Positions 4,717-52,643 of a stretch of 52,643 nt of DNA are shown piece after piece (position 1 is the stretch's first letter; each line of letters begins with the position of its first letter). The stretch covers positions 1 through 52,643 of the IMG/VR virus record IMGVR_UViG_3300023116_000065. One strand, given 5' to 3'. Made by a program: the position numbers and the translations under genes. This DNA comes from a virus. The notes below the pieces were generated by a model, which was given only the letters and a program-made list of their open reading frames with translations, was not told the DNA's origin and searched no databases.

Positions 4717-4717
4717 A

Positions 4718-19800: not shown

Positions 19801-22800
19801 CTAGGATATAACCCTGTTGATGGTGCAGGATATCCAACAAACCCAGTTGAAGATAGATTTGTTGATGCGGCGAATTTGATTACAAGTAATAAAGATTTCA
19901 TCGCAAATGAGGCAGTTCAAAGAATGCTTCTAGATCCAGCAAACTCTGGATTCTCAGTTCCTAATGGAACTGTAAATTGTGTTGATGATGTCAAGGATGT
20001 TCTAGATTCTATGGCATTCAATATGAGATATGGTGGAAATAGTAAGGTTTGGGATTCTGCAAACTTCTATGCTACAACAACTAATCTTCAAGGCGAAGAA
20101 GATGAATCTATCGAGGTCTTCAACCATGCTAGAGGAATCGCAATTCAAGTAATCCAAAACGTTGCTGTAACAGTTCAGGGATCACATGGTCTTACCCAAA
20201 CATTTGACAATAGTATTACTGTTGATGCTGGTGGGTGTGCAAATGTTCAGTCAGCAATTACCACATATATTAGTATTATTACAAGTACTATCAATGATAA
20301 TACATATCTGAATGGTATTACCAGAACATCACCTAAAGCATATCCAATTACATATAATGGTCAAATTAACGTAATTACTGACAATTCAATTATTATTGAT
20401 GGTTCAAGTTACACTGCATCATGTGCAAATATTGAATCTGCAATTTATACGTTATTTGATATTGTAATCAATACTATTTCAGATCCAACAACATTATCCT
20501 CTATCAATAGGACATCAGGTAAGGGATATGTAGAGAAGGAAGGATTCCCACAAAAGTTCTTTGCTTTTGCTAATGGTAAGTATTCTGTTCTCGACTCTTT
20601 TGATACTTCACTCCAAGATAACACAACGTTCTTACTGAAGAGATCTGGTGACCTTATTGTACCAACTAGTTCTCTTCAAATTATTATGATGGTTGATGGT
20701 GTTATTCAGGAATTTGGCAAATCATATGTTTTGAATGAGGCATTAGTTGAATTCTATGAACCAGTAAGAAAAGGATCTAAGGTTGTTGCACTTTACTGGT
20801 ATGGTAAGGATCTTGAGAAGATTCTTCAGGGTTATAACATGCCATTATATGAACCAAACTTTATCAAGAGAAATCTTATCACTGGCACTGCAGTTACATA
20901 TACTGATCCAGGTGGATTCAGTACAAATAAACTGATTAGATCTATTAAGTCTGAGGATGTTCCAGTATTTGAATATTTGGATACTTCCAAGAAAGTTCAA
21001 ATTGATGGGGAAGCACAACCAAGAACTATTTTCAGTGTCTCTAACAGGGACATCATTCAGTGGGAGACAGATGATACTGAGAGCAATACATATTCGTTTG
21101 ATGCAACAAACATTAATACCATATTCAGTAAAGTATATCTTGATGAATATACTGGAACAGCACAAACTTCTGATGTTATTGAGCCTGGTACAAGAGTAAC
21201 TTACAACAATAATGGAAATCCTGATATTCCTGGATTGACTGGTGGTCAGCAATATTATGTTGGATATCGTTATCCTGAAAGAGCAGTTCTGTTCTACAAT
21301 GATTATCAATCTTCATTATCATCAGATGAAACATATGCTATTGCGATTGGAACCAGTACAGGTGTTCATAGTATTACTATTCCATCAGATCTTTATGGTC
21401 TGAGACAGGCAAACATTACAACTAGTGATTATGGTGGCATCACAAGAGGTCAGGGTGCTGATCTGGTTGCTAGAGTTAGATGGACTGCAACTGTTGCTAG
21501 CACTGCAGCATATGCACCAGAGCAATTACTATTTTCTGCTGGGGAAAATGTCGCTAAAGTGATTGAAGTAATTTCGGCAACGGAAGTCGAAATTCAAATG
21601 TTCCCTGACAGAGTAATCCCACTAAACTCGGTGATTACAACTGATCTTGGTGGATCCAATCCACAAACAGTTACTGGAAGAGTAAATGGTAGAGTTGTCG
21701 CCATTGAACCAGTTCAAGGTGCGTTCCCAATTGGATCAGACTATGAAACTGCTCCAATTATTGTAATTAGACCATCTAGAAATGATACTGGTAGATATGC
21801 AACTGCATATTCTCAGATTAATAGAAATAATCAACTCGAAAATTGTGTTGTAACTAATGAAGGTGAAGAATACTATGAAGTTCCTGATGTACTTGTTAGT
21901 AGAGAATATGATGTCATTTCACCAGTATATCCAACAGTCAAGACTGCAGGATATCTAAACTTCTGGACTTCTCAAGATACTCAGATTTCTGTTAGCACAT
22001 TTATTGATGCTCGCTCTGAAGTTGAGGTTCAAATTCTAAGGAATGTTGATATTGGTGTAGATGATCCACTTAATGATCAAGTAGTCACTATAAATCTTGA
22101 GCCACAGATTCTTGATGATTTTATTACCACACCAGGAAAAACTTACTCATATAATGGTGCAGCACCATTTGAAGAAGATTTAGCAGATGCAGTTCCAGCA
22201 ACAGTTACTTCTGTTGGTCTCTTGAGATTGACACCTACGTTTAGTCTCCTTGAGGAAGATAGATTTGCTCTTGAAACCTCCTTTGAGATTGGTAGTCTAG
22301 ATCAATTCCAAGACTTAACTATTGGAACGGTAAGTGATAGATATTATTCCTCAATCTACAAGGATCTAAATAACCGCGTGACTAGATATAATATGTCGCC
22401 AATTACATCGACAGTTGAGGCAGTAGCAACACTAACTGCAAATTATCAAGTTGTTGATTCTGAGATGTCTATTTCCAGTGTTGCTGGATTCAATAGACTT
22501 TATGTTGAAGGAACTACATTCTGGATTTATCCTGGAGCAGAAATTTATAATGAAGTTTCTACTGATCTAATTGGTAGAGTTGAAAGAATCATTGATTCAA
22601 ATACTTGGGTAATTCAGTTAGAAAGAGGAAAACAACTCACCGTTGGTCAAGGATTGACATATGCCAAGAATACTGTGAAGGTGACAGAAGTTGCTGATAG
22701 ATATGGGTACGTTCAATTTGCTGAAGCAGGCAAAGTTGAGACAGTACGATATGGAAGTATTGATTGGACATTCAATAAGTTGACCGAGGTTGAAAATAAC

Positions 22801-22851
22801 TCCTATCCACATAGCTCGAACGTGGAAATAAGGACAGCATACGAGCACTGA
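10822..22851 (+). CDS. Giant gp7-slot baseplate protein with YHYH modules (4009 aa)
   Basis: The N-terminus (residues 1-240) has the LPDFFVQEYPLFVEFFKQYY motif and the later VLKYIKDFYRSKGTSPAVEFLFR segment, seen at the start of large tail proteins of marine phages. GSGY..P.V.I beta repeats appear from about residue 600 and again near 1750. A YHYH module spans about 810-935 and a second, interrupted one about 2457-2670. Paired IGTE..RI...LTVTR modules lie near 1370 and 1490, and a degenerate cupredoxin-like segment at about 1603-1683. A helical module is duplicated in tandem at 2886 and 3011. Its place between gp6 and gp8 matches gp7 of T4 (about 1030 residues), but it is four times longer. 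Probably a baseplate-periphery protein; the gp7 link is positional. Confidence 0.85.
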   Translation: MINISQLVDNQLPDFFVQEYPLFVEFFKQYYKYTEIDNSSSSILKKIQTYQSSDFYKDGIILETVLANDVSVTDTQIVLSSDVNNADAVDKNNIPIFERFPKEGLLLLKSSNGNEIVQYKNINKQTGVVSQIKRGAAGTVKLGDLLLESNSYTSTEVIEHAANDTEVINITHLFLASLFKNLKTQYFSGLPVERLNEGVNVPTVLKYIKDFYRSKGTSPAVEFLFRSSFNDDKVLIRYPNEQLIKASESTWSVDTIIQADLVNLSNGYTTDDLSGLVLKQVKYAHDTSIEEASASIERVISLKSGERQLYRIYVNSESVTGNFSPINQTLSRVNFSFGQKSLVVDSTVGFPEINGVFYIEGVVDANGESVAFTYAEKTGTEFYGIESDALGFTTARKNARVYSGNVVSVVEDITSSVSSPFATFRPTGIISDFDIVNTGLLLSEGDKFDFVQSGIEGNLPIQTSWSQNAPGNEANVSLVSVSGQMRSTYLQNDYKVTKSVNGVYDDGDYVYVSSNGFPDVVGSIGNINGGPNALLNPASQRHLKKIPKNLSFAQTLYPLPDDNTVAVSVDGVPIISPTGTNESLSNRELVTQGEIIKINVTNGGSGYSEAPRVSISGVGGATGTAVVTNGSVTAITITAAGQGYTYRPEITISTGSGAVLEANFGSNNRLGDIQSLDIVNSGSFYTQAPDIEVVDESGRGRGAKFIVQSIDPVNGNITAIKKVSGGFDYDQTKTKIYVVSTGTGATAEAEVRSWHRDNYAAYTQFADDANGYPFQGRFPEYNDAYYYVGNPRGYRITKNDNITSGGVELPSDLTHSPIVAWSYDGVPIYGPVGYSDPTDSNSALKRVESSYYLRDDRGENGPSAVEFTMGSFVEDYEYKPEGNPLHKDLDKHNGRFCVTPDFPEGRYCYFLTIHSSDDINQRNRQDARPRYPYMIGPTYKFNPETSNFTKESILSSLPSNAIRIRDVNDNVPNFGTNLEASVTAVSSGSVDSVIIENPGNNYSVGTDNYIPRFVAGDKLFVDDTNTQGVGFAGKVASIVAKNNSGNDIGVSSISYSTITGSLDVRKQVLNIAPPTFDGTDFQYNKIFENDTIVDTSKTKYAIETAIACSATDTVLRFRTANTSNVNIGDTIDIQSESVYINSAFTNSSRYVYLSVANIQSSDPVSPQTDQGFFYKYENGKELFDEIYVDSGDQSTKVGRILEINAVSNILKVEMYIDPDTQNYYAIPALATGISNQIQTEPRYSQNVSSIEYVKEVTVIRGYDGSKASRHPFGVECSTQVPTANIDDYKVRLQFTGADPSLFVPGVYIQGQNSDTTARIELVETISATSGYLYLTDVKEGPNASDIPRFGIYNNGSFGPETINEIGAGVTTTLIADIDEDDTILKVVNSDLFYVNRYINIGTEIMRITDKKSGQLTVTRAQGGTVADEHSVNASVSISNHSATTAGDTYQLTVSLENAQRFSNTSTFDDNNGDSITVNAVVDGSISDEDITLNIDAENYEKFSLGDVIEIGTEQLRIDSKRTNLLTVTRGFNQTTASHHSHNASIENISKYDAVVTTNTNHDLLESDLIEISGDPSLETIQETGISVRIVNGQFEFSSVHTDSNYQQNPSLTLVYGHKYVFDVSESTNSNTTLGFYSDRDFNNEISVERIGVPGSLNSKVILKNNNRDYTNIYYNNPNALISGLTSKLTFIEDPYNVSLTGVFDLTDTTFKYIVRTKPEGNARGTKTLALQSHRYSGKIHRISITDAGRGYQSLPTIKGVYFREEDAFRGTVITDDDGTIQRVDIDFGGTRYVSPKVYVIGNGSGASMTADVLDNSIRRITINSGGFGYDKNTKLVLVEEDSRNVRILPATTSIGKISAFSIKNPGYDLTSNYTMAPQVRIPTTIQVININGEYRKGETVYQGNVNTPSGQGVVDSFNSTTNVLKLISVTGRFVDGVQVVGYTSSATSTASKVNLSKISATVGALTSIEGVFTDEFGKLNTASQKIQDSYFYQDFSYVIRSQIPVSDWRQTIKTSTHPAGFVVFGEVIIDSSQSVAMLPVLGEVKCPANAATSSWKFDTRTEISTTGDTAGALYLRNAFGIQVGDALKYRSTSQDEVISWNATNLAGDQVTGRLVHDRIYYVLEITSTDQYGTWIKFGQYHPEDKFADVDHNKENYIYNLVPTDISYKHEFRCDTQNPKTLITINVLKKFVEIRDTRPQLGPSLKTIQINKFFQFNRKRGIGSLIVSEGSVAVDLKQVDDLTPTFAEGVKMYDLRSLGTNFIPYSENTLLITLDGVVQEPGKSFSIINDRKLDELEITTTGAGELEFDSWRVTNTSTNAGIADVRTVYNDVDFVYIKAESLPSYTTTFSGYDTAPSAQGFIRRFPKVPFSPVEKPRKPLGTFGTFVNGVQIYNVLQGDSYKNRGDWNINHGNWSGNEDTYNGLVDVAGTYFHYNNPIELRRQLSDNISSSGAYVEATTLTHSPILGWAYDGTPIYGPYGYSNPNEVSSIVKINSSYAKRSITTRNVLPDGTILPDAEVGPPVNSVEFTVTSFVDFTGSTEEFAQDQNILQVNSGTDSGVIAGVSGTVVSYDPVTRQVLLRNVVGTFAEGMWIKSQTGWAQINSTPIRYNLGYFAEDYVYTNGSGHLDQYNGRFCVTPEFPNGRYCYFSTIESTTATYGGTNNGAYPYIAGVDLYHRFYEENRLRASELRDKIIFNDPPLKYTDPINGQVNVQQFQGRLFSFVDDSNNNQYAKKYKDISDQFDGNKTTFNLEFTNGQALYSPTDPTEANEYAFVCVDGIPQVYGEAYTINDAQNTITFTNPPKRIGKVINMSEVTNLSQFADSEIVVGQTSQAEGKVLSRTTSGYEGKGIMKVEVTRGDFVDEIIVGQTSNTTGSIKLTGTITTGQDRFLDAANLIEANKQLIAEEAVDIMLDYSAYRGTFSVPGGNQNCIDDVMDVIGAVVNNLRFGGNDYTWDAANLYATGGALQHLVGEEEQSKLVFRWAKDLCILAMQNRLGYNPVDGAGYPTNPVEDRFVDAANLITSNKDFIANEAVQRMLLDPANSGFSVPNGTVNCVDDVKDVLDSMAFNMRYGGNSKVWDSANFYATTTNLQGEEDESIEVFNHARGIAIQVIQNVAVTVQGSHGLTQTFDNSITVDAGGCANVQSAITTYISIITSTINDNTYLNGITRTSPKAYPITYNGQINVITDNSIIIDGSSYTASCANIESAIYTLFDIVINTISDPTTLSSINRTSGKGYVEKEGFPQKFFAFANGKYSVLDSFDTSLQDNTTFLLKRSGDLIVPTSSLQIIMMVDGVIQEFGKSYVLNEALVEFYEPVRKGSKVVALYWYGKDLEKILQGYNMPLYEPNFIKRNLITGTAVTYTDPGGFSTNKLIRSIKSEDVPVFEYLDTSKKVQIDGEAQPRTIFSVSNRDIIQWETDDTESNTYSFDATNINTIFSKVYLDEYTGTAQTSDVIEPGTRVTYNNNGNPDIPGLTGGQQYYVGYRYPERAVLFYNDYQSSLSSDETYAIAIGTSTGVHSITIPSDLYGLRQANITTSDYGGITRGQGADLVARVRWTATVASTAAYAPEQLLFSAGENVAKVIEVISATEVEIQMFPDRVIPLNSVITTDLGGSNPQTVTGRVNGRVVAIEPVQGAFPIGSDYETAPIIVIRPSRNDTGRYATAYSQINRNNQLENCVVTNEGEEYYEVPDVLVSREYDVISPVYPTVKTAGYLNFWTSQDTQISVSTFIDARSEVEVQILRNVDIGVDDPLNDQVVTINLEPQILDDFITTPGKTYSYNGAAPFEEDLADAVPATVTSVGLLRLTPTFSLLEEDRFALETSFEIGSLDQFQDLTIGTVSDRYYSSIYKDLNNRVTRYNMSPITSTVEAVATLTANYQVVDSEMSISSVAGFNRLYVEGTTFWIYPGAEIYNEVSTDLIGRVERIIDSNTWVIQLERGKQLTVGQGLTYAKNTVKVTEVADRYGYVQFAEAGKVETVRYGSIDWTFNKLTEVENNSYPHSSNVEIRTAYEH
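13250..13626 (+). other. YHYH-type module 1 in the 4009-aa protein
   Basis: This encodes LTHSPIVAWSYDGVPIYGP..GYSDP, then GSFVEDYEYK, then HNGRFCVTPDFPEGRYCYF and YPYMIG. The order and the paired DGVPIYG / GRFCVTP.FP.G.YCYF blocks are those of YHYH-domain proteins. The function of the domain in phages is unknown; it may bind carbohydrate or metal. Confidence 0.75.
18190..18830 (+). other. YHYH-type module 2, interrupted
   Basis: Begins LTHSPILGWAYDGTPIYGP and ends YNGRFCVTPEFPNGRYCYF with YPYIAG, as in module 1. Between the SFVD strand and the FAEDYVY strand there is about 65 extra residues (roughly 18424-18640) containing a beta-rich segment TDSGVIAGVSGTVVSYDP. A small domain appears to have been inserted into the YHYH fold. 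Confidence 0.7.
19477..20160 (+). repeat. Tandem helical protein module, two copies
   Basis: Two adjacent copies of a 125-residue module begin at residues 2886 (19477) and 3011 (19852). Shared pattern: DRF.DAANLI..NK..IA.EAV..ML, then FSVP.G..NC.DDV.DV, then N.R.GGN...WD.AN.YAT, then GEE. The protein copies are diverged, so the duplication is old. The following 120 residues contain a second, weaker pair (CANVQSAITTYISIITSTI and CANIESAIYTLFDIVINTI). Confidence 0.85.
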
Positions 22852-33261: not shown

Positions 33262-33477
33262 ATGGACGAAGTAAAAATTGAAGGGCACTCCAATCTAAGC
33301 AAAAACTTAGATTCGGGTGCCATCGTCAACAAGGACAAAGTAGCATATCAAAGATATCTACAATCAAAAAAGAACATGAAAGAAATGCAGGACACTGTGA
33401 GCGATATAAATAAAATGAAGGAAGAGATGTCTGAAATCAAAACTCTACTGAAGGAATTGCTAAAGAAGAATGTCTAA
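33262..33477 (+). CDS. Coiled-coil miniprotein, VKIEGH family (71 aa)
   Basis: The 71-residue product begins MDEVKIEGHSNLSKNLDSGAIVN, an N-terminal signature (VKIEGH.NL.K...GAIVN) seen in short proteins next to tail genes of T4-like cyanophages. The C-terminal half is a heptad-patterned helix (MQDTVSDINKMKEEMSEIKTLLKELL). The frame is open from 33217, but that lies inside the previous gene; 33262 is one base past its stop. The 3' end overlaps the next gene by eight bases (ATGTCTAA), implying coupled translation. Role unknown; it may be a small assembly factor. Confidence 0.85.
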   Translation: MDEVKIEGHSNLSKNLDSGAIVNKDKVAYQRYLQSKKNMKEMQDTVSDINKMKEEMSEIKTLLKELLKKNV

Positions 33478-36400
33478 TAAAGTTCTCTTACAGAAATCAA
33501 AACTTTCTGAATTAAGTCTTACACAGATCGCAGAAGATGTTTCTTCAAAAGTATCTGTAGATAGTTACAAGATACTAAAAAACCAGAATCTCATCGTTTT
33601 TGACGGAGACGATCAAGATAGGTTATACGCTGAGATCAAGGATCTAGAACACGGAAAGGTTACTAAAGACCATAGCAATTTTGAGTTTCATGCTCAGAGA
33701 TCAACTATTGCACCAGGAACCAGTAATAGATATTGGCATCTGGATGCAATTACGCGACTAGATTATACACATAATGCTCCTTCAGGTAACGGCACATTCT
33801 CAACCATTAATAATGGTGAAGATATTGATATCTATATCATTGACTCTGGTATTCAGGGTGCGAGTAGACCTACAGGAACAAATGCGGCGCTCCACCCAGA
33901 ACTATTTGATCCTCAATATGTCACTGATTTGAATGGTGCAACTGAACAGGCATTCTATAGAGTATACGAACTTCCAACATCTGTTTATAATCCAGGAACT
34001 ACTGCTGGCAATGATCCTCAGTCTACTGGTAACATTGCTAATGATGGACACGGAACATATTGTGCCATCATGGCAGCAGGTAGATATGCTGGTGTAGCTA
34101 ACAAAGCCAAAGTCTATTCTCTTAGAGTTTCAGACGACTCTGGAGTTATTTACCTCTCCAAGATGATTGAGGCATATGAAGCAATTTATCGTCATAATGA
34201 CCCAGACGACTCTGAATATAAGGGTAATACTCTAGAGGGAAATACTAGACCCAGACCCTCTGTTGTAAACGTCAGTATTGGTGCAACAGCTCCAAACCCA
34301 AAAGCACCATATATTGATAGAAACGAAAATTATACTGGCAATGCTGTTGCTCTAACAGCATCTGCATCTAGTAGCAATGATTATACTATTAATGGAACTG
34401 ATGCTGCCACTACACACACTAATGCATTAGATCCAACGATCACTGTCAATGCAGGTGATACGCTGACCATTACAACATCAGCGGGTGCATCGCACCCAAT
34501 GTCGATTTGTGTTGAGGGTACAACCACATATAGTGAGGGTGCTCGCGTTGAGGTTGGTGTCACTGGTCAAGGTGAAACTAATGGTGATATTGTAATTGAT
34601 ACAACAGCACTACTAGCAGGAGAAAGAACTGGTAGTTTTGTTTACATCTGTCAGTCTCATGATGCAATGAGAGGGACGATTACTATTAATGATGCAAACT
34701 CTCCAACATCATCTAATGTAAATGAAATTCTGGATGATGGAGAATTTATTCTTTCTACCCAGAAAGGTGTTGCTGTTACCCGCTCTGCTGGTAATGGTAT
34801 GCAGTTTATTGATCCAGATATTGATCCAAATAATCCAGTTGACTATGGTCCACAAAACACCAAAATTACATATGGTTCTAGAAACGCAGGTAAACCATCA
34901 CTCCTAGATCCAGAGATTAGTATCGCACCAGAATACAACAGAAATGAGGTAAATAACGCAACTAAGTTTGTTGTTGGTGCAACTAAAATTGATTCAAATA
35001 ATAAACAATCTTTTGCTGATTTTACAAACTATGGTGAAGCAGTAACTTGTTACGCTCCAGGTCAAGGAATTTTATGTCCAAGATATGATTGGAATAGTGG
35101 AGACGATTATACTGCATCCCATATCACAATTAATGGTACATCATTCTCTGCACCTCTTGTTGCAGGTATGCTTGCAGTATGGAAGCAGATTCATGATGGA
35201 CCTGTGTGGTCCACAGGTTTACATAACGCATCCATTGCTACTGAGAGAAAGTATAAATTTGCCGATTATACAAATCCTAGCGTAATTACTCAAGGCGCAG
35301 TTGGTAATTTCCAAAACCCAACTAGGGCGTCTTCTGGATCTGCCGTAACAAGATATGGAAGCACATCCTCAGGTTCAAGTTGGTATAGATTCTCAACAAC
35401 ATCAGCGTCTAATGCTGTTGTTTTACAACTGACTGATGCTGAGTATACTGCACTATCTCCTGCTCAGAATGATGTATTTGAATTCGAATTCCCAAGAATT
35501 CAGGAAAATAATACTACGGGTGCAAATGGACTTGCAACGGAATACCTCCGAGATGCAATGCACTTGGGTGAAAGAAGAGATTATAATGTTACCGTAGCAC
35601 CAGGTGGTGGCGGTAACGTATATGAACTTGCTAGAGTTCAAAATGGTATTGCGGGAACAGCAACTGCTCAACCAGTTCTCCAATTAGATGATGGTGTTGT
35701 TTATCGTTTTGATCAATCGGATTCATCAAACGCAACACATCCTATTGCAATTTCAAATACTGGTGATGGTACTCATAGTGGTGGAGTTAATTTCCAGACT
35801 TATGTTTCTAACCTTGCTGGTCAGTTATCACAATCTTATAAGAAAAACCTAAGATTCTTCAAAGATGAGGGAACTGGTCCTGTAGAGATTGACCAGGATG
35901 CATATAATGGTCTTGTAGGTCAAGGTCCCGCAATCAAAACATGGATTGAATGGATCAATCCACAAAACAATACCCATCCAAAAGTTGATAGTTCTATCTA
36001 CGCATCAGTATTCCACTACTATTGTGTGAACCATCCAAATATGGGTAGTTCTTTGAATTCATCAGGAACTGTTCCATCTACTGTAAGTATTGGTGGTATT
36101 GATCTAAGAGAATTTGGTAAGAAGTGGAGAAAAGTACAATCAGTAGATGCCGTAAATAAGACTATTACTTTCCATGCAGATTCAAATGCAACAGGAACAG
36201 AAGTAGGTGGTGGTGGTGCGTTTGCACAAGCAGATGAAATTACTGATCAGGGTGCTTGGCCAAGATATCCATTGAGATTTACTAAGATTACTGGAACTTG
36301 GTTTGCTAATGATGCTGTTTGGAACTGGACTGAAAACCACTCATCAGTTCTATATCCCTTCACTAAGTATGCTGGAGGTTCTTTCTCTGCGGGTGAGTTC

Positions 36401-39400
36401 TATGCACAATTAGAGTCAGAAGAAGGTAATGCTGATGGTCAACTAGTCGAGTATTTCCCAATTCCAAAGGGAAGACTAGTTAGAGAAGGTATTGCTGGTG
36501 GCAATGAGCAGGCAACTCAGGCGCTTCAGGTAGGTGCTCGTTGGGGTACTGGTACAATTGCTGAACCAAGAGTATATACACCATTACCAGCAGGTCAATC
36601 ATCTGTCACTTATGATGGTGGGCAAGGTGTTTACTTCCCATTTATTGACCTTACTGCAACTTGGTCAGATGCTGATGGGAGTACAATCGCAACGTTTGCA
36701 CACAATGAGGTTGCAAGTAGAACTGTTAGTCTCTCAACCGTATCTACATTTGCTGGAGACTTAATTGCTGCAGAAGATCGTGAGCAGAATTATGAGTTAG
36801 TTTCTGGTGGATCTAATAGTGCGTTCACTCAAAATAATAACCTTTATACTATTACTGGTAGTGGTCTAACCTTTAACTCATCAACTGGAGAACTATTTGG
36901 TACTGCTACTGGTGGTGCTCAAGCAACTAATTATCAGTTTACTTTAAGAGAGACAACCTCTCAGGCAACAGTTACTTATAACTTTACTGTCAATGGTGCT
37001 CCAGTATCATCGACAATTACAGTTACATCACAACCACCTGCTACATTTATTGGGGATGCATCATTCCCTGTAGATCAAGGAACTATTCAAATTTCTATTG
37101 CTGCAACAGATTCTTTGAGCAGCACAATTACATATCAGTGGCAAGTTGCTGCGGATCTTGCTGCTGCTAACGCTGGAACTTTTGTCGATGTAACTGATAA
37201 TGATGGATTTAGTGGTTCTACAAATCCCACATTAACAATTCCAGATAAGTCTGAGCATGATGGTAAGTATTATCGTTGTAAACTAGACTCTAGTACAGCT
37301 CCAGCATCAGTATATACCGATACTTCACTTGCGGCGATTGCTCCTGTAATTACATGTAGAGTGCTGTGGAACGCAATCACTACGGTATATGCAACTGGAT
37401 CTCTTGCACTGGTTGAGATTGATTCAAATGTTTCTGATGGATCCACTCCTACACTAACACTTGCATATGATACTTCTCAGTTTACTCCAACTTCTCTAGA
37501 GACGGACATCCCCGACACTACATATGACCTAATATCTGCAGGTTATAATAGTGCTGCTGGAAATCCAATTTATTTTGCAAGACTTGGCGAGAATGCATTC
37601 AATACTTCCTCTGCTGGACAGACACCAATTGTTGGGACATACAAGTCCGATGATGGTGTATTTCTGAAAGTCACTGCAACATCTGGTTCAACAACACAAG
37701 ATGCAGTAGCACTATTCAGTCAGCAGATTGTACCATGTCTTGCTCTGATTGATGAAAATGATGGTCAGACACAGGGATCATTAGATGCTGACTGGACAAG
37801 TTTTAGAAGTTCTTGGCCTGATCGTCCATTCCACCTTCTACACGTTAAGAATAGCGCAGGAACTGGGTGGGGTAACCTTTCAACACCAACAGGAGCAGTT
37901 CAAGGAACTGATTACTTCTATTATCAAATTGAAAGAGATCCATCAACTGCACTAACTTCTTATAGTGGGGTTTATGATTGGTTCACTCTGACTGGAATGA
38001 ATACCTTGTCATCTGGAGCAACTCTTGCTCTGTTTATTGATGACTCTGGTAGTATGAACGTTGCCGACGTTCAAGACCAGTTAGATGAGTTTGAGGCAGA
38101 TTGTACTGCTGCAGGTATTAATATTATCAGACTTTATAATGGTAGTGAACAGTATGTAGCTCCATTTATTACCGAACTGACAATCACCGAACCAAACCCA
38201 TATCAGGGTCCGTTCACCGTTGAGAAGGCATACACTCTAACTTCAGACTTACCAAATACTCAAGATATTCCAAAGCAAACTAATACTGCGTTATCACCTT
38301 CTTGGGGTATTGCAAATAATACTGGTATTTCTGCTGCCACTGTTGTCTGGTATTATAAAAATGCTGGGGACCCTTCATTCACTAAGTTACTTTCAGCAAA
38401 TACTACATCACTTCCATGGTATGTCTCTGGTCATGGTACAGCAACTCTGACTGTTAATTTCCCAGATGATACTTATGATGGAATGTCGTTCTATGCAGTT
38501 GGTTATAACGACTTCCTAGGAACTAGCGGTGGTGATGATACTAATGATATTGCTAAGTATTCTGGAGTCAATACTGGAGTTTTAGCAACTAATGTATCAC
38601 CATTTACAGTTAGTGATGTAACAAACCCACCAGGGGTAACTGATCCAGAAGCAACAATTTCAAAAACTAGTGCTACGCTAAATGCATCTGAATATTTAAT
38701 TACTGTTAGTAGTGATAATCTTCCAGATCCTGCACAGTATGGGGTATTCCCAAATGACAATAACACAAACTCTGTAGAAGATAAGACATTTATTCACACA
38801 TTCCATTACAGAGGTGGTACAAATACATCTGCACTTACACCTGTAACTGATGATGCTCTTGCTATCACAACTAATGGTACTCCAATTTATGGTGCCAAAA
38901 TTAGTGGAAATCTAACTGGTGATACTGGTTCTGCAGCAGGTCTTGCTCCCGCAGGATTTAGTTGGAACGCAGGTCTTTACACCCTAGATACATCACTAGG
39001 TGGTAATATCTACGGTGCTGACCTTGCTGGTGGTTATGCAGATTCCAGTAATACCTATGTTTACCGTACAGGTAAGTTTGCTCTCTCTGGATCTGGTCCA
39101 TATTCTGCAGAAATGTGGGATGGCATTGGAAGATCCAATAATTATTACAGAACAGGTAACTTCTCTGGAGACTACCTACGTCATTCTGATGGTCACTCCA
39201 AGATTATTGGTATTGCATTCGATGGTCACCCAATTTATGGAACTTGGGGTTATAGTAGCGCACTAGACAATACTAGTGCTATTACTAGAATGACATCTTC
39301 TTATACTGCATATGCACAGGAGCAACCAGGAAGAACATATACATATGCACAATATCCCGCAGGGACATTTGTTGAAGACTATCAGTTTGTTTCATCATCA

Positions 39401-42073
39401 GGCACTCTAGACAGAAGTAATGGTCGATATTGTGTAACTCCTGAGTATCCAAATGGAACATATGCATACTTTGTATCTACAGACACTAATGGTGCTAACA
39501 CATATCCATATGTGATTGGTCCTCTGATGCGTCAGGGTTACAATGTTGTTGGTGGAACTGCTCCTACTGATCCTGGTGGTACAAACCTTCAGGGACCAGG
39601 TAATGGTGCTTTTGATATCAAGAGAGTATTTACTACTGGTGTCACAATTCAAGCGATTGCTGGAACAAGCACCAGACAAGTTTATGCAATTGAATCTGTA
39701 GATGCTACTGAACCTGTAACTTACCAGTGGCAAAGAAGTTCTGATAACTCAACCTGGACAAATATTGGACCTGGTGATACTGGTTATTCCAACTATACCA
39801 CCAATACACTAACAATTAATGATAGTGATAAGTCTATCGATGATCTGTATATTAGATTGCAGGTTACTGATAGTCTAAGTGTTATTGGTAATTCTGCGCC
39901 CATGGCGCTGGAATATGTTGGAGCAACTCTAGCAATTACAACTCAACCAACAACAGTATCCACTTTTTCTGGGGTGGGAGCGTCGTTCAACATTGCTGTT
40001 ACTGCAACTGATTCCAGTACAGTATCATATAGATGGCAGTATAGTTCTAACGGTGGATCTACATGGGCAAATGTTAGCACTTTAGGTGATTGGAGTGCAG
40101 TAAATGATACTCAGGCATCATTATCTTTGCCTGGTTCTACAATTACAACAACCAAAAATAATTATCAAATTAGATGTGTTGTTGACTCACCGTCTGCAGA
40201 GAATGGTCCACTAAACTCAAATGCAGCTACACTGACCGTAGGAAATACAACTGTTGCTGCTAGTGGAGTTGTTCATACTAATAATGCTAACAACCCAATT
40301 AAATCATATGATGAAGGTGAGACTATCTCCGTTGAAGCAACTATTACACCATCACAGAATGTTCCTGTAAACTATACCTGGAAGAGAAGTGTAGACAATG
40401 TAACTTATACTACAGCTGCTTCTGGATCTTTAACTCAAGCAAGTCCAACAACGACATTTACTGAAACTGCAGATCAAGCAACTCTTGGTGGTGCTACAAT
40501 TTATTATAAACTTGAATATGATATTCCTGGTGTTGTTACTGGTGCAAGTGCTCCTCAGATTGCAACATCAAATATCTTCAAAGCACTTACAATCACATCT
40601 CAACCATCAGATACTACAGTATATGTAACGCAACCAGCATCGTTTACTGTTGCTGCAACTGCAACTAGTGGTACTGAAACTTATCAATGGCAGTCATATG
40701 ATGGGTCTAGTTGGAATGATATCTCTGGTCAGACTACAAATACTTTGACCATCTCTAGCCCAACACTTGCAGATAATGCAAACACATATCGTGTAAAGGT
40801 TACTTTGGTTGGACAAAATCCATCAAGTACGGATCCTAATAGAGTTGGTGATGTTATTACATCTGGCACTGCCACATTATCAGTTGACGCTCAACCATCG
40901 ATTGGTATTACTGTACAACCAGCAAACTTGTCTGTATATCAACCCGATGTTGCAGTGTTTGCTGTTGAGGCAGCTGCTTCTGATGGATCTGACATTACAT
41001 ATCAGTGGCAAGAAAGTAGCGATACTGGAAATACTTGGAGTAATATTAGTAATGCAACTAGTAACTCGGTTAGTACTGGAGTTACAACTACTGCAGGATT
41101 CAATGGCAGACAGTACAGAGTTATCATTACCCACCCATACGGATCTAATAGTCCACTAACTTCAAACGTAGCAACTCTAACTGTACAGACTCCTGTAATT
41201 AATATTGCTACTCAACCACAAAGTTTCAACGTTACTGCAGGTATTCCAGTTACGTTTGCAGTTACTGCAACTGTAACTAGTGGTAAGACAATCAATTATC
41301 AGTGGCAATATAGCACTGATGGTGGAGCAAATTACTCCAGTATCTTTGATGAGAACAACCCATCACTAACGACAATTGGTGGAACTGAGAACAATGGTTG
41401 GTACTATCGTTGTGTACTCACATCTGAGGGTGCAGCAGATGTAAATTCTGATGCAGGTATTCTGAGTCTTGCATATCTTGCAAACCCAACAATTACGTCA
41501 AGTAGATTTATTGATACTGTCACTAATCTGACATTTACTAGATCACCAATTATCTACGCATCATCCTTCCAATCATACATTGGAAATGGTCACGAGTCTT
41601 CTTTCTGGACTATTAGAAGAACATCAGACAATGTGGTTGTATATCAAACTATCGACACGTTGCCAGATGGTGATACCGTACAAAAAATTGAATTACAAAC
41701 ACCTGAGTTGGATTGGGGAACTGAGTATACTGTTCAAGTCAAATATAGAGACTCTGCAGGATTTGAAACTGCAATTTCACCTGCAGCAACGTTTGTTACT
41801 CCTGTAGTAAATCAACCCACGTTCCAACCAATTCCAACTTCACTGAGACCAACTATCATTCTAAATAGTATTGAGTTCAACAGTGCGTTATATAACCATA
41901 GTTCAACATCGTGGCAGGTTGCATCTTCTGGTACATTTGCATCAAATGCAATTGTCTATGAGTCTCTAGATGATGTATCTAACAAGATTACAATTACAAT
42001 TCCAGAGACTGTAACACTAGATGCCTCTAGAAATTATTATGTGAGAGCGAAGATCAATCTAACAGCTATCTAA
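33470..42073 (+). CDS. Multidomain virion subtilisin with cupredoxin, VWA, YHYH and Ig domains (2867 aa)
   Basis: Residues about 90-580 form an S8 (subtilisin) peptidase with all key residues: D125 in IYIIDSG, H194 in DGHGTYC, oxyanion N442 in RSAGN, S558 in NGTSFSAP. Between VVNVSIG (265-271) and the RSAGN strand sits an inserted cupredoxin (about 290-407) with H342, C394, H397 and M400 as type-1 copper ligands. A second cupredoxin (about 720-865) has H757, C852, H855 and M858. Then follow an Ig-like domain (near 1180), a VWA-like MIDAS DDSGS (1524-1528), a YHYH module (near 1900-2020), about six more Ig-like domains with YQWQ strands (2050-2650) and a C-terminal fibronectin-like part. Likely a tail protein acting on host surface proteins or on virion assembly; the role is inferred. 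Confidence 0.88.
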   Translation: MSNKVLLQKSKLSELSLTQIAEDVSSKVSVDSYKILKNQNLIVFDGDDQDRLYAEIKDLEHGKVTKDHSNFEFHAQRSTIAPGTSNRYWHLDAITRLDYTHNAPSGNGTFSTINNGEDIDIYIIDSGIQGASRPTGTNAALHPELFDPQYVTDLNGATEQAFYRVYELPTSVYNPGTTAGNDPQSTGNIANDGHGTYCAIMAAGRYAGVANKAKVYSLRVSDDSGVIYLSKMIEAYEAIYRHNDPDDSEYKGNTLEGNTRPRPSVVNVSIGATAPNPKAPYIDRNENYTGNAVALTASASSSNDYTINGTDAATTHTNALDPTITVNAGDTLTITTSAGASHPMSICVEGTTTYSEGARVEVGVTGQGETNGDIVIDTTALLAGERTGSFVYICQSHDAMRGTITINDANSPTSSNVNEILDDGEFILSTQKGVAVTRSAGNGMQFIDPDIDPNNPVDYGPQNTKITYGSRNAGKPSLLDPEISIAPEYNRNEVNNATKFVVGATKIDSNNKQSFADFTNYGEAVTCYAPGQGILCPRYDWNSGDDYTASHITINGTSFSAPLVAGMLAVWKQIHDGPVWSTGLHNASIATERKYKFADYTNPSVITQGAVGNFQNPTRASSGSAVTRYGSTSSGSSWYRFSTTSASNAVVLQLTDAEYTALSPAQNDVFEFEFPRIQENNTTGANGLATEYLRDAMHLGERRDYNVTVAPGGGGNVYELARVQNGIAGTATAQPVLQLDDGVVYRFDQSDSSNATHPIAISNTGDGTHSGGVNFQTYVSNLAGQLSQSYKKNLRFFKDEGTGPVEIDQDAYNGLVGQGPAIKTWIEWINPQNNTHPKVDSSIYASVFHYYCVNHPNMGSSLNSSGTVPSTVSIGGIDLREFGKKWRKVQSVDAVNKTITFHADSNATGTEVGGGGAFAQADEITDQGAWPRYPLRFTKITGTWFANDAVWNWTENHSSVLYPFTKYAGGSFSAGEFYAQLESEEGNADGQLVEYFPIPKGRLVREGIAGGNEQATQALQVGARWGTGTIAEPRVYTPLPAGQSSVTYDGGQGVYFPFIDLTATWSDADGSTIATFAHNEVASRTVSLSTVSTFAGDLIAAEDREQNYELVSGGSNSAFTQNNNLYTITGSGLTFNSSTGELFGTATGGAQATNYQFTLRETTSQATVTYNFTVNGAPVSSTITVTSQPPATFIGDASFPVDQGTIQISIAATDSLSSTITYQWQVAADLAAANAGTFVDVTDNDGFSGSTNPTLTIPDKSEHDGKYYRCKLDSSTAPASVYTDTSLAAIAPVITCRVLWNAITTVYATGSLALVEIDSNVSDGSTPTLTLAYDTSQFTPTSLETDIPDTTYDLISAGYNSAAGNPIYFARLGENAFNTSSAGQTPIVGTYKSDDGVFLKVTATSGSTTQDAVALFSQQIVPCLALIDENDGQTQGSLDADWTSFRSSWPDRPFHLLHVKNSAGTGWGNLSTPTGAVQGTDYFYYQIERDPSTALTSYSGVYDWFTLTGMNTLSSGATLALFIDDSGSMNVADVQDQLDEFEADCTAAGINIIRLYNGSEQYVAPFITELTITEPNPYQGPFTVEKAYTLTSDLPNTQDIPKQTNTALSPSWGIANNTGISAATVVWYYKNAGDPSFTKLLSANTTSLPWYVSGHGTATLTVNFPDDTYDGMSFYAVGYNDFLGTSGGDDTNDIAKYSGVNTGVLATNVSPFTVSDVTNPPGVTDPEATISKTSATLNASEYLITVSSDNLPDPAQYGVFPNDNNTNSVEDKTFIHTFHYRGGTNTSALTPVTDDALAITTNGTPIYGAKISGNLTGDTGSAAGLAPAGFSWNAGLYTLDTSLGGNIYGADLAGGYADSSNTYVYRTGKFALSGSGPYSAEMWDGIGRSNNYYRTGNFSGDYLRHSDGHSKIIGIAFDGHPIYGTWGYSSALDNTSAITRMTSSYTAYAQEQPGRTYTYAQYPAGTFVEDYQFVSSSGTLDRSNGRYCVTPEYPNGTYAYFVSTDTNGANTYPYVIGPLMRQGYNVVGGTAPTDPGGTNLQGPGNGAFDIKRVFTTGVTIQAIAGTSTRQVYAIESVDATEPVTYQWQRSSDNSTWTNIGPGDTGYSNYTTNTLTINDSDKSIDDLYIRLQVTDSLSVIGNSAPMALEYVGATLAITTQPTTVSTFSGVGASFNIAVTATDSSTVSYRWQYSSNGGSTWANVSTLGDWSAVNDTQASLSLPGSTITTTKNNYQIRCVVDSPSAENGPLNSNAATLTVGNTTVAASGVVHTNNANNPIKSYDEGETISVEATITPSQNVPVNYTWKRSVDNVTYTTAASGSLTQASPTTTFTETADQATLGGATIYYKLEYDIPGVVTGASAPQIATSNIFKALTITSQPSDTTVYVTQPASFTVAATATSGTETYQWQSYDGSSWNDISGQTTNTLTISSPTLADNANTYRVKVTLVGQNPSSTDPNRVGDVITSGTATLSVDAQPSIGITVQPANLSVYQPDVAVFAVEAAASDGSDITYQWQESSDTGNTWSNISNATSNSVSTGVTTTAGFNGRQYRVIITHPYGSNSPLTSNVATLTVQTPVINIATQPQSFNVTAGIPVTFAVTATVTSGKTINYQWQYSTDGGANYSSIFDENNPSLTTIGGTENNGWYYRCVLTSEGAADVNSDAGILSLAYLANPTITSSRFIDTVTNLTFTRSPIIYASSFQSYIGNGHESSFWTIRRTSDNVVVYQTIDTLPDGDTVQKIELQTPELDWGTEYTVQVKYRDSAGFETAISPAATFVTPVVNQPTFQPIPTSLRPTIILNSIEFNSALYNHSSTSWQVASSGTFASNAIVYESLDDVSNKITITIPETVTLDASRNYYVRAKINLTAI
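34335..34690 (+). other. Cupredoxin-like domain nested inside the S8 peptidase
   Basis: Codes for residues about 289-407 of the 2867-aa protein. Strand pattern DPTITVNAGDTLTITTSAG, then SHPMSI, then SFVYICQSHDAMRGTITI. H342, C394, H397 and M400 form the H...C-x2-H-x2-M arrangement of type-1 copper sites. It lies between the subtilisin VVNVSIG strand and the helix before RSAGN, so it interrupts the catalytic domain rather than flanking it. Confidence 0.75.
35620..36070 (+). other. Second cupredoxin-like domain
   Basis: Residues about 718-867 of the 2867-aa protein: YELARVQNGI..., LQLDDGVVYRFDQSDSSNATHPIAIS, then FHYYCVNHPNMGSS. Ligands H757, C852, H855 and M858. The 95 residues between the first His and the Cys are more than in the nested copy, with an extra segment that includes YKKNLRFFKDEG. 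Confidence 0.7.
39190..39520 (+). other. YHYH-type module 3
   Basis: Encodes HSKIIGIAFDGHPIYGTWGY, then GTFVEDYQF, then SNGRYCVTPEYPNGTYAYF and YPYVIG, matching the two modules in the 4009-aa protein block for block. Confidence 0.75.
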
Positions 42074-47079: not shown

Positions 47080-50000
47080 ATGGCAAAGAAGTTAATTTAT
47101 AACTACGAATTTACTCCTGGCGGCGCAAATGCTGGAGTAATCAAGTTTAAGGGGAGACATCCACAGAGAACCTTGCTTCTGGTTACTAACGTTACTAGAA
47201 GCACCATTATCTATAACTTTGCGGGTGCTGGTTTTGGTGGAACCGTAACTTATGATGCAGCAAATGACGAATCCACTCTAACACTAGAAACAGATACATC
47301 TGCACAAAATAGTGCTGATGAATTACAGATCTTCCTTGATATCAGAGAAGATAAGGTTGATTTTTCAGAGACATTTACAGACCCAGTAAGTAAACTCAGA
47401 GTTTCCAATCCACAAAACCTGATTGATACTGACTTTGAGTATGGTCTCCAACCAACTAAATGGGAAACAGTTGAGTTAGTTAATAATATCCCATCATTCT
47501 TTGCAGCTAATGATTCGTATTCTATTGGTGATGTAGTTGCTGTAAACACTAGTTCTGGTTCTAAGTCAATTACAGTGATTACTCAAGAACCACATGGTCT
47601 ACAAGTTGGATCACCATTTGAAATTCAAGGTCTTTCTCAAAGAACTGCAGAAGGAAAATATCTAGTAACCTCAGTAGAAAGTACCACGGTATTTTCATAT
47701 AATGCCAAGAAAAAACAAACAGCCACTTCAGATGTCAGTGGTAGTTACACAGTTGTAACTCCAGGTCAATTCTATGAATCCGCAGATATCGCTACTTCTG
47801 GTGGTGTTGATACAAATGAAGCAACAAAATCTTCTCTATCAGTTACCACAGATTATACTCATGGATTTGAAACTGGGTCCTCTTTATATTTGACAAATAC
47901 ATATGGTAACGAGGCATATGTTGTCGATACTGGATCTGCAACTGCTGGAGATGGTAGACCTTTTATTGATTATGATCAAACTGTAACTACAACTATTGAT
48001 CTTGACGAATCAAAAATCGTTACACGACAGATGAATTCGATGTATTTTTATGAGTTTCAATCTTCCGATGTAGACGTAGCAAATAATACTATTACTTGGA
48101 ACAATCATAGTCTAAGAGCTGGTGATTGTTTGTTATATTTGAGCTCACCATATGATACTGCTATTGGTGGGTTACAAAGACAGCAAATTTACTATGTAAA
48201 AACTGCAACTACAAACACAATTACTTTATGTGAAACTACAAACGGAGCATTTACTACAAATTCTACTATCAATTTCAGTAGTGTTGGATCATATGATTAT
48301 GGACCACACTCTTTACATCTAGCATATGAAATTAGGAATCTAAACAAAAGTAGTTATAACTACTATCACTATGCAAAAACCAGATATCAGAGTGATGGTG
48401 TAGGTTCTGGATGGGATCTTGCATCTGGAATGAATAATAGTAGAGGACTAGGAGGTGCCGAGTTCTCCCCTAACTATACTGCATGGGTTGATAAAAAATC
48501 TACTGCAGGTAGTTTATATAGTTGGCATTCTGCTGGTTATGCATATGCAACCTATAATAATCCTGATTTTAGTATGGGCAAAACCAGCGTTGGTATTGTG
48601 AATGATAGTGAATTTATGGAAGGTTTCGATAGATATCGTTCATACTCTACTGCTTATTCACCAAATCGTTGGTTTACCAGCACAATAAGATGGTATAACG
48701 CAGGTACAAATTATTATAGTTACGTTAATAGAAACGTTGACGTAGGTACATTATTTGCTGTTTTCCTAAGAGTAAATACAGAATCTGAAACGTACTTCAA
48801 GCAAAATCATGGACTAGAAACTGGCGATACAGTTACTTATAGTGTGCAATCGGGTCAACCATTAGAATATCTCATTAGAACAAGCAATAACTATACTGTT
48901 GACGGAACATTACAGTCAGTTACCAGTGGAACTTCAGGCACAGTAACTAAAGTTGATGATAATAGATTCAAGATTGAGCTTGTAGCTCAACCTACTGGAT
49001 ATGGGGCAATTGCAAGAATGATCCACGTTCGTGGTCAGTATCAACTTACAGGTACTTTCAACAACAACGCTGCAAATTCAATTTATGTTGGATCTAATAA
49101 TCTAAATGAGAATCAAAAACTAACAGTTACTAGTATTGGAGGATTCCCGACAACCCAGACTGGAGTTTTGCAACCAACTATTAATACAATTACCAGTGTA
49201 TATAATGCAATAGAAACCTGGTGTGATGGGCAAGTTACTTCTAATGGAACTGATGCAGGAAAAATAGTTTATACTGGTTCAAATTTTTACAATCCAATCT
49301 CAAATAATCGGGTATTTATTACTGACTATGGTTACCAACAACTCTACCTGACTTGGTGGAGATATTCATACTCAAGATTTTATAGAAACTTTAACAACTA
49401 CTATATCGGACAGTGGAACCATGGTCATGGACCATTCCCTGCCGCAACCAATTCAGGTGTTCCAGCTGATTACCATAGTAATATAACCTTATTGCGTGAT
49501 CGAGGATTTTACTATTTGACTACTCCATATACGTATAATACTACTACAGATTATGTAATTGGTATTGCTCAAGTTCCAGATGCAACTTGGTGGTATAATG
49601 CAACTTCGATGCAATTGTATTCGCAATTGTATTCATACCAGTATTCAAATAGTACTAAGTACTCATACCTTACAAGTAATGGACCTTATTCTGTATGGAA
49701 AACAAAAGCAAATGGGTGGAGATATTCGTATAAGTACCATTATTCGCTTCCAACTGTAAATGATCAAGGTTTGATGGGTATCTCAGTTTGTCTAGAAAAT
49801 ACAAACTGGACTATGCAAGCAGATGATCAAAATAGAATACATTACATGGGAGATACTTCAAGTAGCCAACCCTTTGGTGATTTTGATAATTATCTTAGTG
49901 GTCAAAGATATCATATTCACCTTATGATACCACAGAAGAGAAATACTTCTGCCATTTATGCTACTAACCAGGTTGACGCTGAAGCACTAGTTGATTCAGC

Positions 50001-52643
50001 AGTAACAGCTGTTACTACAGGACTATCATATCCTGCATTTACTAGCCCATCTACAACTGCTTATGCAAATAAAATTGATAATAATAGAATTAAACTTTTA
50101 GGACTTCCTGATGGAGAATTCTTTAGGCTTACTAGTAGTGGATCAGACCTAACGCTATCTACAGAACTAAAACGAGGTGGTGTTGATGGTGAATATGTAA
50201 TCACTCACAGTTCAAGTGAAGAATTTAGGAGTATTACATCTTATAAAATTAATGGGCGAGATCTTTCCGTAACATTTAGTAATGTTACAAATTCACAATT
50301 CAATTCTACAAATCACAAACTACTGAATGGAACCAGAGTAACATATACTGAGAGTGGCGGGACTATTTCTGAACTCACATCTGGTGATGAATATTACGTA
50401 ATTGTAACTGGTCCAGATAGCTTCCAACTGGCATCTACATACCAGTCGGCAGAGAATGAACAACCAATTACATTGACTACTCCCACTTCAGGTACTTTTA
50501 CATTTGCAGTCAAAAACGTTACTGCAAGACAAGAGGCTGACGGAACTGTTACTTTAGAAGCGAACGAAAGAAGGGTAACAGGTACAGATACAGTATTTAC
50601 TCAATATTTCAAACCAGGTGATCGATTTGTTGTCAAAAATCCTGCAACAACTCCAGCAACTTTTGATGAATATACTGTTTCAGTTGTTACCGATGACGCA
50701 GAATTATATCTTCAGGAATCTCCTGGCGGCGCACTGACAAATACAAAATATTATATTGATACGAAAGTATATGTAAAACCTGATGGGTCTAGTCAGCATA
50801 GACCATTTGATGGTGGTGTTGAGATCAATGCTGGTTCTTCACCAAACAGTTCTATTGTTAGACAAACACGTAAATATTTCCGTTATCAGTCTGGTAAAGG
50901 TATTCAGTGCTCACTGGCAATTAATTTCAACCCATCACGATTGATTGATACAATTACTGGTGTGGCAAATTCAACTTTACCATCTAAAACCTCAGAAGTT
51001 ATTATTACCAATATACAAAGTTTCTCATACAATTCTTTTGGTGAAGATAGAACTGGTACTGTTATTGGTGATAATAAAACTATTACTGTTCTCAAGGGGG
51101 ATACATTAAGACTGACAGTATCTGCATCTGGGCATCCAACCTATATTCAAAGCAGTGCAAGAACTAGTGGTTCTGGTCAAACTAATGTCGTCACGACTGG
51201 GGTCTCAAATAACGGCACTGATGATGGAATTATTATTTGGGATACAACAAACATAACTCCAGGAACATATTACTACCAGTGCTCTAACCACCATACCATG
51301 GTTGGTCAAATCATAGTTGATTCTGCCCCAACAGCAACTTCTTTGGTTACCGTCACAACAGCAGAACCACATGGATTGACCAGAGGAAATACTGTTAAGA
51401 TTTCTGGTTCTTCTGATACGGAATATAATGGAACGTTTACTGTTGTTGATTCTGAGGACTTTAGTTTCATCTATGAATGTGTAGATGGTGGCGTAGCAAG
51501 AGCATTTACTACTGGTACTCCTTCTGGGCTTATCAATTATAATCCTGGAAATTATTCAAATACAGCAATCAGATGTGGGTTATTTGATTATCAAAATGGT
51601 TTCTTCTTCGAATATAATGGAACTGATCTGTATGCAGTAAGAAGATCATCAGTCCAACAAATTTCTGGGAGATCTAGCGTCACTTCTGGATCTAATATTG
51701 TAACAGGAACAAATACTGCATATAGTAGACAACTGTCTGATGGGGACATGATTGTTATTAGAGGATCATCTTATAGAATTACTGCTGTTGAAAACGATAC
51801 CTCTTTACATATCCAACCAGCATATAAAGGTATCAATTCTACAGATGCTGTAGTTACTAAAACTATTGACACTAAAGTTCCTCAATCAAATTGGAATATT
51901 GATAAAGCAGATGGAACTGGTCCATCTGGGTTTGATATTGATATCACCAAGATTCAAATGGCATATCTAGATTACTCTTGGTATGGTGCAGGTAAGATTC
52001 GCTTTGGATTCAAAGACACTCATGGACATGTCAAGTATATGCATGAGTTTATTCATAATAACCAGTTAGATGAAGCATACATGAGATCTGGTAACATTCC
52101 AGGTAGATATGAAATTGAAAATACTGGTGGCGAAGTTGGATATATCCCAGCACTGTTCCACTGGGGTACTTCAGTTATGATGGACGGTGGATTTGACGAT
52201 GATAAAGCGTATCTATTTACTGCAGCATCAAATGATCTGACTTTTACTAACGGGGACTCTGCTTCGATTAGTACCGTTGCAAATTCTTCACTAATCTATA
52301 ACTATAACTATGGACAGAGAAGATTCTATTGGTATGCCAAGATTCCATTTGCTACAACAGATGCTGGTAGTTTCTCTACTGGAGTTGAATTGTATACTGC
52401 AGGTGGAGAGTTGAATGGAGAAAAGGTCGATTACACAGATTATGCAGATGGAAACTTCAACGTTTATATCTATGTCAGCGACACAAGAAGATACACACCA
52501 CCAGCAATTTACCCTAGCGTGTCTAGCGGAACTGCGGTTAGCATTGGTGCTCCTGCAAGTGGTTCAACAGATACTGTTGACTTGACTCAAGATATTCCAT
52601 TAATTAGTATTCGTCTTGCACCATCAGTTGATAACAACCTGAC
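47080..52643 (+). CDS. Giant structural protein, partial (>1854 aa), with cupredoxin
   Basis: The ATG at 47080 opens a frame that stays open to the window edge, so the 3' end is missing. The N-terminus (MAKKLIYNYEFTPGGANAGV..., then FSETFTDPVSKLRVSNPQNLIDTDFEYGLQPTKWE) is a signature of very large virion proteins in T4-like cyanophages. Repeated beta modules such as EPHGL..G and TVVDSEDFSF/FSYN-type segments follow. A cupredoxin-like domain (about 1335-1415) carries H1352 in SGHPTYI and C1401, H1404 and M1407 in YYYQCSNHHTM, a complete type-1 copper set. No start-site Shine-Dalgarno is visible, but a late promoter lies 31 bp upstream. Likely a tail or fibre component. Confidence 0.85.
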   Translation, partial: MAKKLIYNYEFTPGGANAGVIKFKGRHPQRTLLLVTNVTRSTIIYNFAGAGFGGTVTYDAANDESTLTLETDTSAQNSADELQIFLDIREDKVDFSETFTDPVSKLRVSNPQNLIDTDFEYGLQPTKWETVELVNNIPSFFAANDSYSIGDVVAVNTSSGSKSITVITQEPHGLQVGSPFEIQGLSQRTAEGKYLVTSVESTTVFSYNAKKKQTATSDVSGSYTVVTPGQFYESADIATSGGVDTNEATKSSLSVTTDYTHGFETGSSLYLTNTYGNEAYVVDTGSATAGDGRPFIDYDQTVTTTIDLDESKIVTRQMNSMYFYEFQSSDVDVANNTITWNNHSLRAGDCLLYLSSPYDTAIGGLQRQQIYYVKTATTNTITLCETTNGAFTTNSTINFSSVGSYDYGPHSLHLAYEIRNLNKSSYNYYHYAKTRYQSDGVGSGWDLASGMNNSRGLGGAEFSPNYTAWVDKKSTAGSLYSWHSAGYAYATYNNPDFSMGKTSVGIVNDSEFMEGFDRYRSYSTAYSPNRWFTSTIRWYNAGTNYYSYVNRNVDVGTLFAVFLRVNTESETYFKQNHGLETGDTVTYSVQSGQPLEYLIRTSNNYTVDGTLQSVTSGTSGTVTKVDDNRFKIELVAQPTGYGAIARMIHVRGQYQLTGTFNNNAANSIYVGSNNLNENQKLTVTSIGGFPTTQTGVLQPTINTITSVYNAIETWCDGQVTSNGTDAGKIVYTGSNFYNPISNNRVFITDYGYQQLYLTWWRYSYSRFYRNFNNYYIGQWNHGHGPFPAATNSGVPADYHSNITLLRDRGFYYLTTPYTYNTTTDYVIGIAQVPDATWWYNATSMQLYSQLYSYQYSNSTKYSYLTSNGPYSVWKTKANGWRYSYKYHYSLPTVNDQGLMGISVCLENTNWTMQADDQNRIHYMGDTSSSQPFGDFDNYLSGQRYHIHLMIPQKRNTSAIYATNQVDAEALVDSAVTAVTTGLSYPAFTSPSTTAYANKIDNNRIKLLGLPDGEFFRLTSSGSDLTLSTELKRGGVDGEYVITHSSSEEFRSITSYKINGRDLSVTFSNVTNSQFNSTNHKLLNGTRVTYTESGGTISELTSGDEYYVIVTGPDSFQLASTYQSAENEQPITLTTPTSGTFTFAVKNVTARQEADGTVTLEANERRVTGTDTVFTQYFKPGDRFVVKNPATTPATFDEYTVSVVTDDAELYLQESPGGALTNTKYYIDTKVYVKPDGSSQHRPFDGGVEINAGSSPNSSIVRQTRKYFRYQSGKGIQCSLAINFNPSRLIDTITGVANSTLPSKTSEVIITNIQSFSYNSFGEDRTGTVIGDNKTITVLKGDTLRLTVSASGHPTYIQSSARTSGSGQTNVVTTGVSNNGTDDGIIIWDTTNITPGTYYYQCSNHHTMVGQIIVDSAPTATSLVTVTTAEPHGLTRGNTVKISGSSDTEYNGTFTVVDSEDFSFIYECVDGGVARAFTTGTPSGLINYNPGNYSNTAIRCGLFDYQNGFFFEYNGTDLYAVRRSSVQQISGRSSVTSGSNIVTGTNTAYSRQLSDGDMIVIRGSSYRITAVENDTSLHIQPAYKGINSTDAVVTKTIDTKVPQSNWNIDKADGTGPSGFDIDITKIQMAYLDYSWYGAGKIRFGFKDTHGHVKYMHEFIHNNQLDEAYMRSGNIPGRYEIENTGGEVGYIPALFHWGTSVMMDGGFDDDKAYLFTAASNDLTFTNGDSASISTVANSSLIYNYNYGQRRFYWYAKIPFATTDAGSFSTGVELYTAGGELNGEKVDYTDYADGNFNVYIYVSDTRRYTPPAIYPSVSSGTAVSIGAPASGSTDTVDLTQDIPLISIRLAPSVDNNL
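51080..51325 (+). other. Third cupredoxin-like domain, in the partial terminal gene
   Basis: Codes for KTITVLKGDTLRLTVSASGHPTYI, then GTYYYQCSNHHTMVGQIIV. H1352, C1401, H1404 and M1407 repeat the H...C-x2-H-x2-M spacing of the two domains in the subtilisin protein, with 48 residues between first His and Cys. Confidence 0.75.

Follow-up and report, generated by a model that had tools for sequence, protein, structure and literature searches.

A cupredoxin domain nested in the catalytic domain of a cyanophage tail-region S8 subtilase

An S8 peptidase of the cyanophages P-HM1 and P-HM2 was reported in 2010 (PMC3037559), and an S8 annotation is already on record for S-BM3, S-H9-1 and others. The P-HM1/P-HM2/MED4-213 proteins (T4-GC 518/519) have an S8 core homologous to that of the enzyme described here (~42–47% identity) and an Ig-rich C-terminus, but their protease is uninterrupted, and in P-HM2 cupredoxins lie both before and after it. 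The subtilisin-like serine proteases of S-H9-1, ACG-2014 and S-CAM4 combine S8 and cupredoxin domains in one protein, with a module related to the one reported below, although they belong to a distant S8 lineage (~20% identity) and their cupredoxin is C-terminal. Among enzymes of solved structure, proteinase K and aqualysin-1 (S8A) share the fold, the triad and the oxyanion Asn with the phage enzyme but contain no domain where it has ~130 extra residues. Amicyanin and plastocyanin, to which the phage module shows profile matches, are soluble electron carriers, whereas the phage module is nested in a protease; the amicyanin His and C-x2-H-x2-M spacing is common to both. Whole domains inserted in the catalytic domain are found in the PA-domain subtilases (cucumisin, C5a peptidase), where the PA domain follows the oxyanion Asn, unlike the phage cupredoxin insert.

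The window, meaning the whole stretch of DNA that was analysed, is a 52,643-bp IMG/VR virus record (IMGVR_UViG_3300023116_000065, positions 1 to 52,643). Its ORF at 33470–42073 on the plus strand is uninterrupted over 2867 aa and is preceded by gp25-like, gp6-like, 4009-aa wedge-like, gp8-like and DUF4815 genes and followed by a tail-fibre gene. Synechococcus phage S-BM3 has a matching gene order (gp8, DUF4815-like or "virulence associated", peptidase S8, tail fibre), and its peptidase S8 (WDS61281.1), annotated only as such, has the same architecture including the nested cupredoxin; the two proteins are 54–55% identical over residues 19–677, but in S-BM3 the spacer is 10 aa shorter and the nested module is only 40% identical. 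A tail-region protein of a marine, Kyanoviridae-type cyanophage is the best explanation of the ORF, and its position among the baseplate genes and the gene order suggest that the product is a virion protein. The features discussed below are:

33470..42073, plus strand: tail/baseplate-cluster protein of 2867 aa with a putative prodomain, a subtilase with nested cupredoxin, a second cupredoxin, a YHYH domain and Ig-like repeats
33470..33667, plus strand: N-terminal domain, residues 1–66, with a predicted beta-alpha-beta-beta-alpha-beta order, the topology of I9-type subtilase propeptides
33725..34309, plus strand: N-terminal part of the subtilase, residues 86–280, with D125, H194 and strand S269-x-G271
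34325..34720, plus strand: nested insert, residues 286–417, missing in P-HM2-type homologues as judged by alignment and spacer length
34343..34693, plus strand: cupredoxin domain proper, residues ~292–408, with ligands H342, C394, H397 and M400
34721..35203, plus strand: C-terminal part of the subtilase, residues 418–578, with oxyanion N442 and nucleophile S558
35612..36064, plus strand: second cupredoxin-like module (type b), residues ~715–865, motif YRFDQSDSSN...HP...YYC-VN-H-PN-M
38825..39490, plus strand: YHYH domain (PF14240), residues 1786–2007, E 3.9e-27
50989..51321, plus strand: third cupredoxin module, CSNHHTM, E 1.6e-24, in the virion-protein-like ORF 47080–52641+, which has no protease

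Pfam places the protease in PF00082 with 61.9 bits over residues 178–580 against a cut-off of 21.8, and in a six-frame Pfam search the match is split into two pieces that flank the insert. The Asp/His/Ser triad and the oxyanion Asn sit in canonical S8 motifs at the residues named by the first-pass annotation (D125, codon at nt 33842; H194, nt 34049; S558, nt 35141; N442, nt 34793). A protease profile built from insert-free relatives matches aqualysin-1 (2e-27) and proteinase K (7e-23). The four residues are kept in 83–85 of 86 homologues, the remainder being truncated or frame-split, so that they are kept wherever the site is covered; they also align with the distant cyanophage S8 lineage, where all 23 rows have them. 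These comparisons confirm the window protease as an S8 subtilase of the proteinase K/aqualysin type with an apparently intact catalytic set. The N-terminal domain is propeptide-like by its predicted topology, with block pLDDT values of 57–86 across two AlphaFold2 models; Pfam I9 gave no match in the window protein and a weak one (E 0.027) in the S-H9-1 homologue. An earlier remark that an intact subtilisin in a phage tail protein is unusual has to be toned down, given the 2010 report cited above and the 174 S8 ORFs that we collected, nearly all of them on cyanophage-type contigs.

When aligned with the uninterrupted P-HM2 protease, the window protein has an insert at residues ~286–417, between S269-I-G271 and R438-S-A-G-N442, as had been proposed from the sequence at the outset. 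The S-x-G strand of subtilases lines the substrate groove. The insert comes directly after this strand and ahead of the helix leading to N442, in a loop that adjoins the groove and borders the active-site cleft. Within the insert, the four copper ligands anticipated by the first-pass annotation are in place (H342, nt 34493; C394, nt 34649; H397, nt 34658; M400, nt 34667), in the order His, Cys, His, Met and with a C-x2-H-x2-M loop of amicyanin-type spacing, and the set is invariant in all 45 distinct modules. A profile of eight phage modules, the nested one included, matches PDB entries at 2e-6 to 1e-4, among them copper nitrite reductase (1.9e-6), amicyanin (1e-5), rusticyanin and plastocyanin. 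Scanned alone, the nested module scores 21.1 bits against Copper-bind (PF00127), 0.1 bit short of the 21.2-bit cut-off, and we therefore do not claim membership of that family. Ligand set and profile matches identify a complete cupredoxin of ~120 aa, amicyanin/plastocyanin-like and a predicted copper binder.

Structure prediction is in line with a nested arrangement. In the AlphaFold2 model used here (residues 1–605, 60 sequences, whole-model pTM 0.58) the nested domain is predicted with 8–9 strands and a pLDDT mostly of 91–94, above that of the surrounding protease, whose core elements lie mostly at 65–85, with several loops below 50 and the strand and helix order expected for a subtilase. 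The linkers at residues 272–287 and 411–416 (~16 and ~6 residues) have a pLDDT below 50 and are predicted to be flexible. An earlier model (residues 1–960, 32 sequences, pLDDT 50.5) was used for the N-terminal domain only. Foldseek returned proteinase K and aqualysin (probability 1.00, TM 0.61–0.68 by target length), and because proteinase K chains of 278–279 residues were aligned over ~500 model columns, the predicted match covers both halves around the insert. The nested module drew module-length matches to phage fibre proteins that carry the same module.

The nested arrangement is genuine and conserved, being present in six genomes: the window, four IMG/VR contigs (L009, L010, L011 and L008, the last being the same contig as L007) and S-BM3 (L003). 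No further nested homologue came from a second scan, run with an alignment specific to the clade. None of the four catalytic residues or the four copper ligands varies among the six proteins, and clade A retains the insert position throughout, with identities as low as 56–58%. The spacer from S-x-G to RSAGN measures 156–166 aa in the six sequences versus 43 aa in ~77 close relatives of the Prochlorococcus phage P-HM2 type, in which the same protease is uninterrupted and retains all catalytic residues; many of these relatives have cupredoxins before and/or after the protease. Every pair tested is under purifying selection in all regions, the insert included (insert dN/dS 0.14–0.54). Recurrence in six genomes together with this selection shows that the arrangement is no product of chance. 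An assembly artefact or a decayed gene, to which we assign next to no probability, is ruled out by the open frame and the purifying selection, and by the recurrence of the architecture in the isolate genome of S-BM3 and in four independent contigs.

Loop length at this position varies among lineages: two S8 proteins of the distant lineage that were measured (P-SSM2 and S-H9-1) have 72–74 aa before RSAGN, and in profile alignment the same loop is far shorter in keratinase and aqualysin. In these phage enzymes we therefore regard the loop as a hot spot for insertions, and any special regulatory role should be viewed with caution on that account. As to where the insert came from, relocation of a post-protease module of the P-HM2 type is disfavoured by the module tree, in which the nested modules group with the S-H9-1 C-terminal and fibre modules, away from those of the P-HM2 type, with low support within the group. 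Since the tree sets the nested module apart in this way, a separate acquisition appears likelier than a relocation, though unproven.

Beyond the nested form, S8 and cupredoxin domains have been joined repeatedly in cyanophages, in several topologies. At least 117 of the 174 S8 ORFs encode a cupredoxin in the same ORF, which is nested in 6, before and/or after the protease in 45 of the same lineage, and after it in 66 of the other lineage; the sample was gathered from protease-seeded searches and holds many ORFs of shared ancestry or truncated length, so these counts describe recurrence rather than an unbiased rate. Among 50,697 phage records, 35 contain relatives of the module, and with few exceptions these are cyanophages. 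Across 161 wider module matches, 151 have C-x2-H-x2-M; the rest are mostly truncated pieces, with a few truly degenerate modules, and those are in fibre ORFs without S8 or are extra copies. The type b module, with its C..H..M motif at residues 852–858 in the window protein, keeps C, H and M in 50 of 51 cases; it follows the protease in the window and precedes it in P-HM2-type proteins. A GTDB scan with the protease as query found no relative. The cupredoxin module as query, a scan that covers this module's relatives and has cellular subtilases with other nested cupredoxins outside its reach, gave 12 loci, none with S8 motifs, of which two resemble phage contigs binned into MAGs and the remainder resemble ordinary bacterial cupredoxins. 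In a full-text literature search, mostly of sources outside subscription journals, we found no account of a nested cupredoxin protease or of the recurrent S8–cupredoxin pairing. Cyanophage S8 peptidases are thus already known, while the nesting, for which the first-pass annotation likewise knew of no described enzyme, and the recurrent pairing are apparently undescribed.

The S8 ORF near position 863 of an IMG/VR contig (L157, 3300048034_000143) has five post-protease cupredoxin matches. In S-MbCM7/ACG-2014h (L094, 2418–5342) the S8 domain is separated from the C-terminal cupredoxin by an esterase-like stretch with weak AXE1, BD-FAE and DLH matches. Copper ligands are lost in cupredoxin-like modules of two ORFs without S8 (L139, ORF near 1233; L175, ORF near 9222). 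Phage-like ORFs with the module are present on two GTDB MAG contigs (L184, L185) titled Euryarchaeota and Gammaproteobacteria, which are probably mis-binned phage contigs.

For the function of the protein we favour a copper-binding accessory or exosite role of the nested module on a tail-associated subtilase. The full proposal, a self-processing S8 subtilase of the cyanophage tail region with a spliced-in copper-binding cupredoxin that acts as a tethered exosite, strikes us as evenly balanced between right and wrong. The N-terminal domain would chaperone folding and then be cleaved off; the protease would stay attached to the network of baseplate or fibres, and its substrate, which it would cleave during adsorption or assembly, would be a protein of the host envelope or one of its own giant partners. 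The cupredoxin, with copper bound, would act next to the cleft as a tethered exosite for docking or stabilisation; neither electron transfer nor tight on/off switching would be its task. Host surface proteins and the phage's own giant partners are guesses at the substrate.

Metal or redox gating, as first put forward for this protein, would have copper occupancy or oxidation state open or close the cleft, thereby limiting proteolysis to the host surface or to one redox environment. The loop that bears the insert does directly follow the substrate-binding strand, the copper ligands do not vary among the six nested homologues, and the pairing of S8 with cupredoxins is recurrent; against this, tight mechanical coupling is disfavoured because the linkers are predicted to be flexible, the ~77 insert-free homologues keep full catalytic residues, and the module also occurs elsewhere, outside or after the protease and in fibres that are not proteases. 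Gating is unsupported, and we consider it improbable; its most specific form, a virion-borne protease that is switched by whether a nested blue-copper domain holds copper or by its redox state, and that acts as a copper-sensing tail trigger, we consider slightly less probable still. A passive role is doubtful too but deserves more weight, with the cupredoxin as a beta-sandwich display module, like Ig-like or YHYH domains, that was shuffled into a tolerant loop and is irrelevant to proteolysis, any bound copper merely stabilising the fold or aiding adhesion. The module is found in P-SSM2 fibres, a gp10-like protein of P-TIM68, a YHYH protein of an actinobacterial phage and the window ORF at 47080–52641; since some carriers of the module have no protease, the cupredoxin need not serve proteolysis. 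The hot-spot loop and the type b module, which switches sides of the protease between clades, point the same way, but the retention of the nested position throughout clade A and the co-occurrence in the S8-gathered sample, with its shared ancestry, do not.

It is also rather unlikely that the enzyme is an assembly protease only, acting in cis on its propeptide, and possibly on the rest of its giant polypeptide or on neighbouring proteins as the tail matures, with no host target. Such a role would suit the propeptide-like topology and the location of the gene among baseplate genes; the propeptide, however, has no sequence confirmation in the window, and the related cyanophage S8 proteins vary so widely in size and domain make-up that a single conserved maturation step is not indicated. 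Should the copper site be filled and the protease be virion-borne, this would mean unusual metal chemistry built into the phage adsorption apparatus. S-BM3 is an isolate on Synechococcus WH7803, which makes the question testable, and the uninterrupted P-HM2-type enzyme provides a natural control.

Further observations concern the gene cluster itself. Besides the S8 protein, the 4009-aa wedge-like protein (window 10822–22851) also contains YHYH domains (PF14240); these domains are histidine-rich and share the cluster with the cupredoxins. A PAAR-like protein (phrog_281) is encoded at 4661–5062 of the window, near the baseplate genes.
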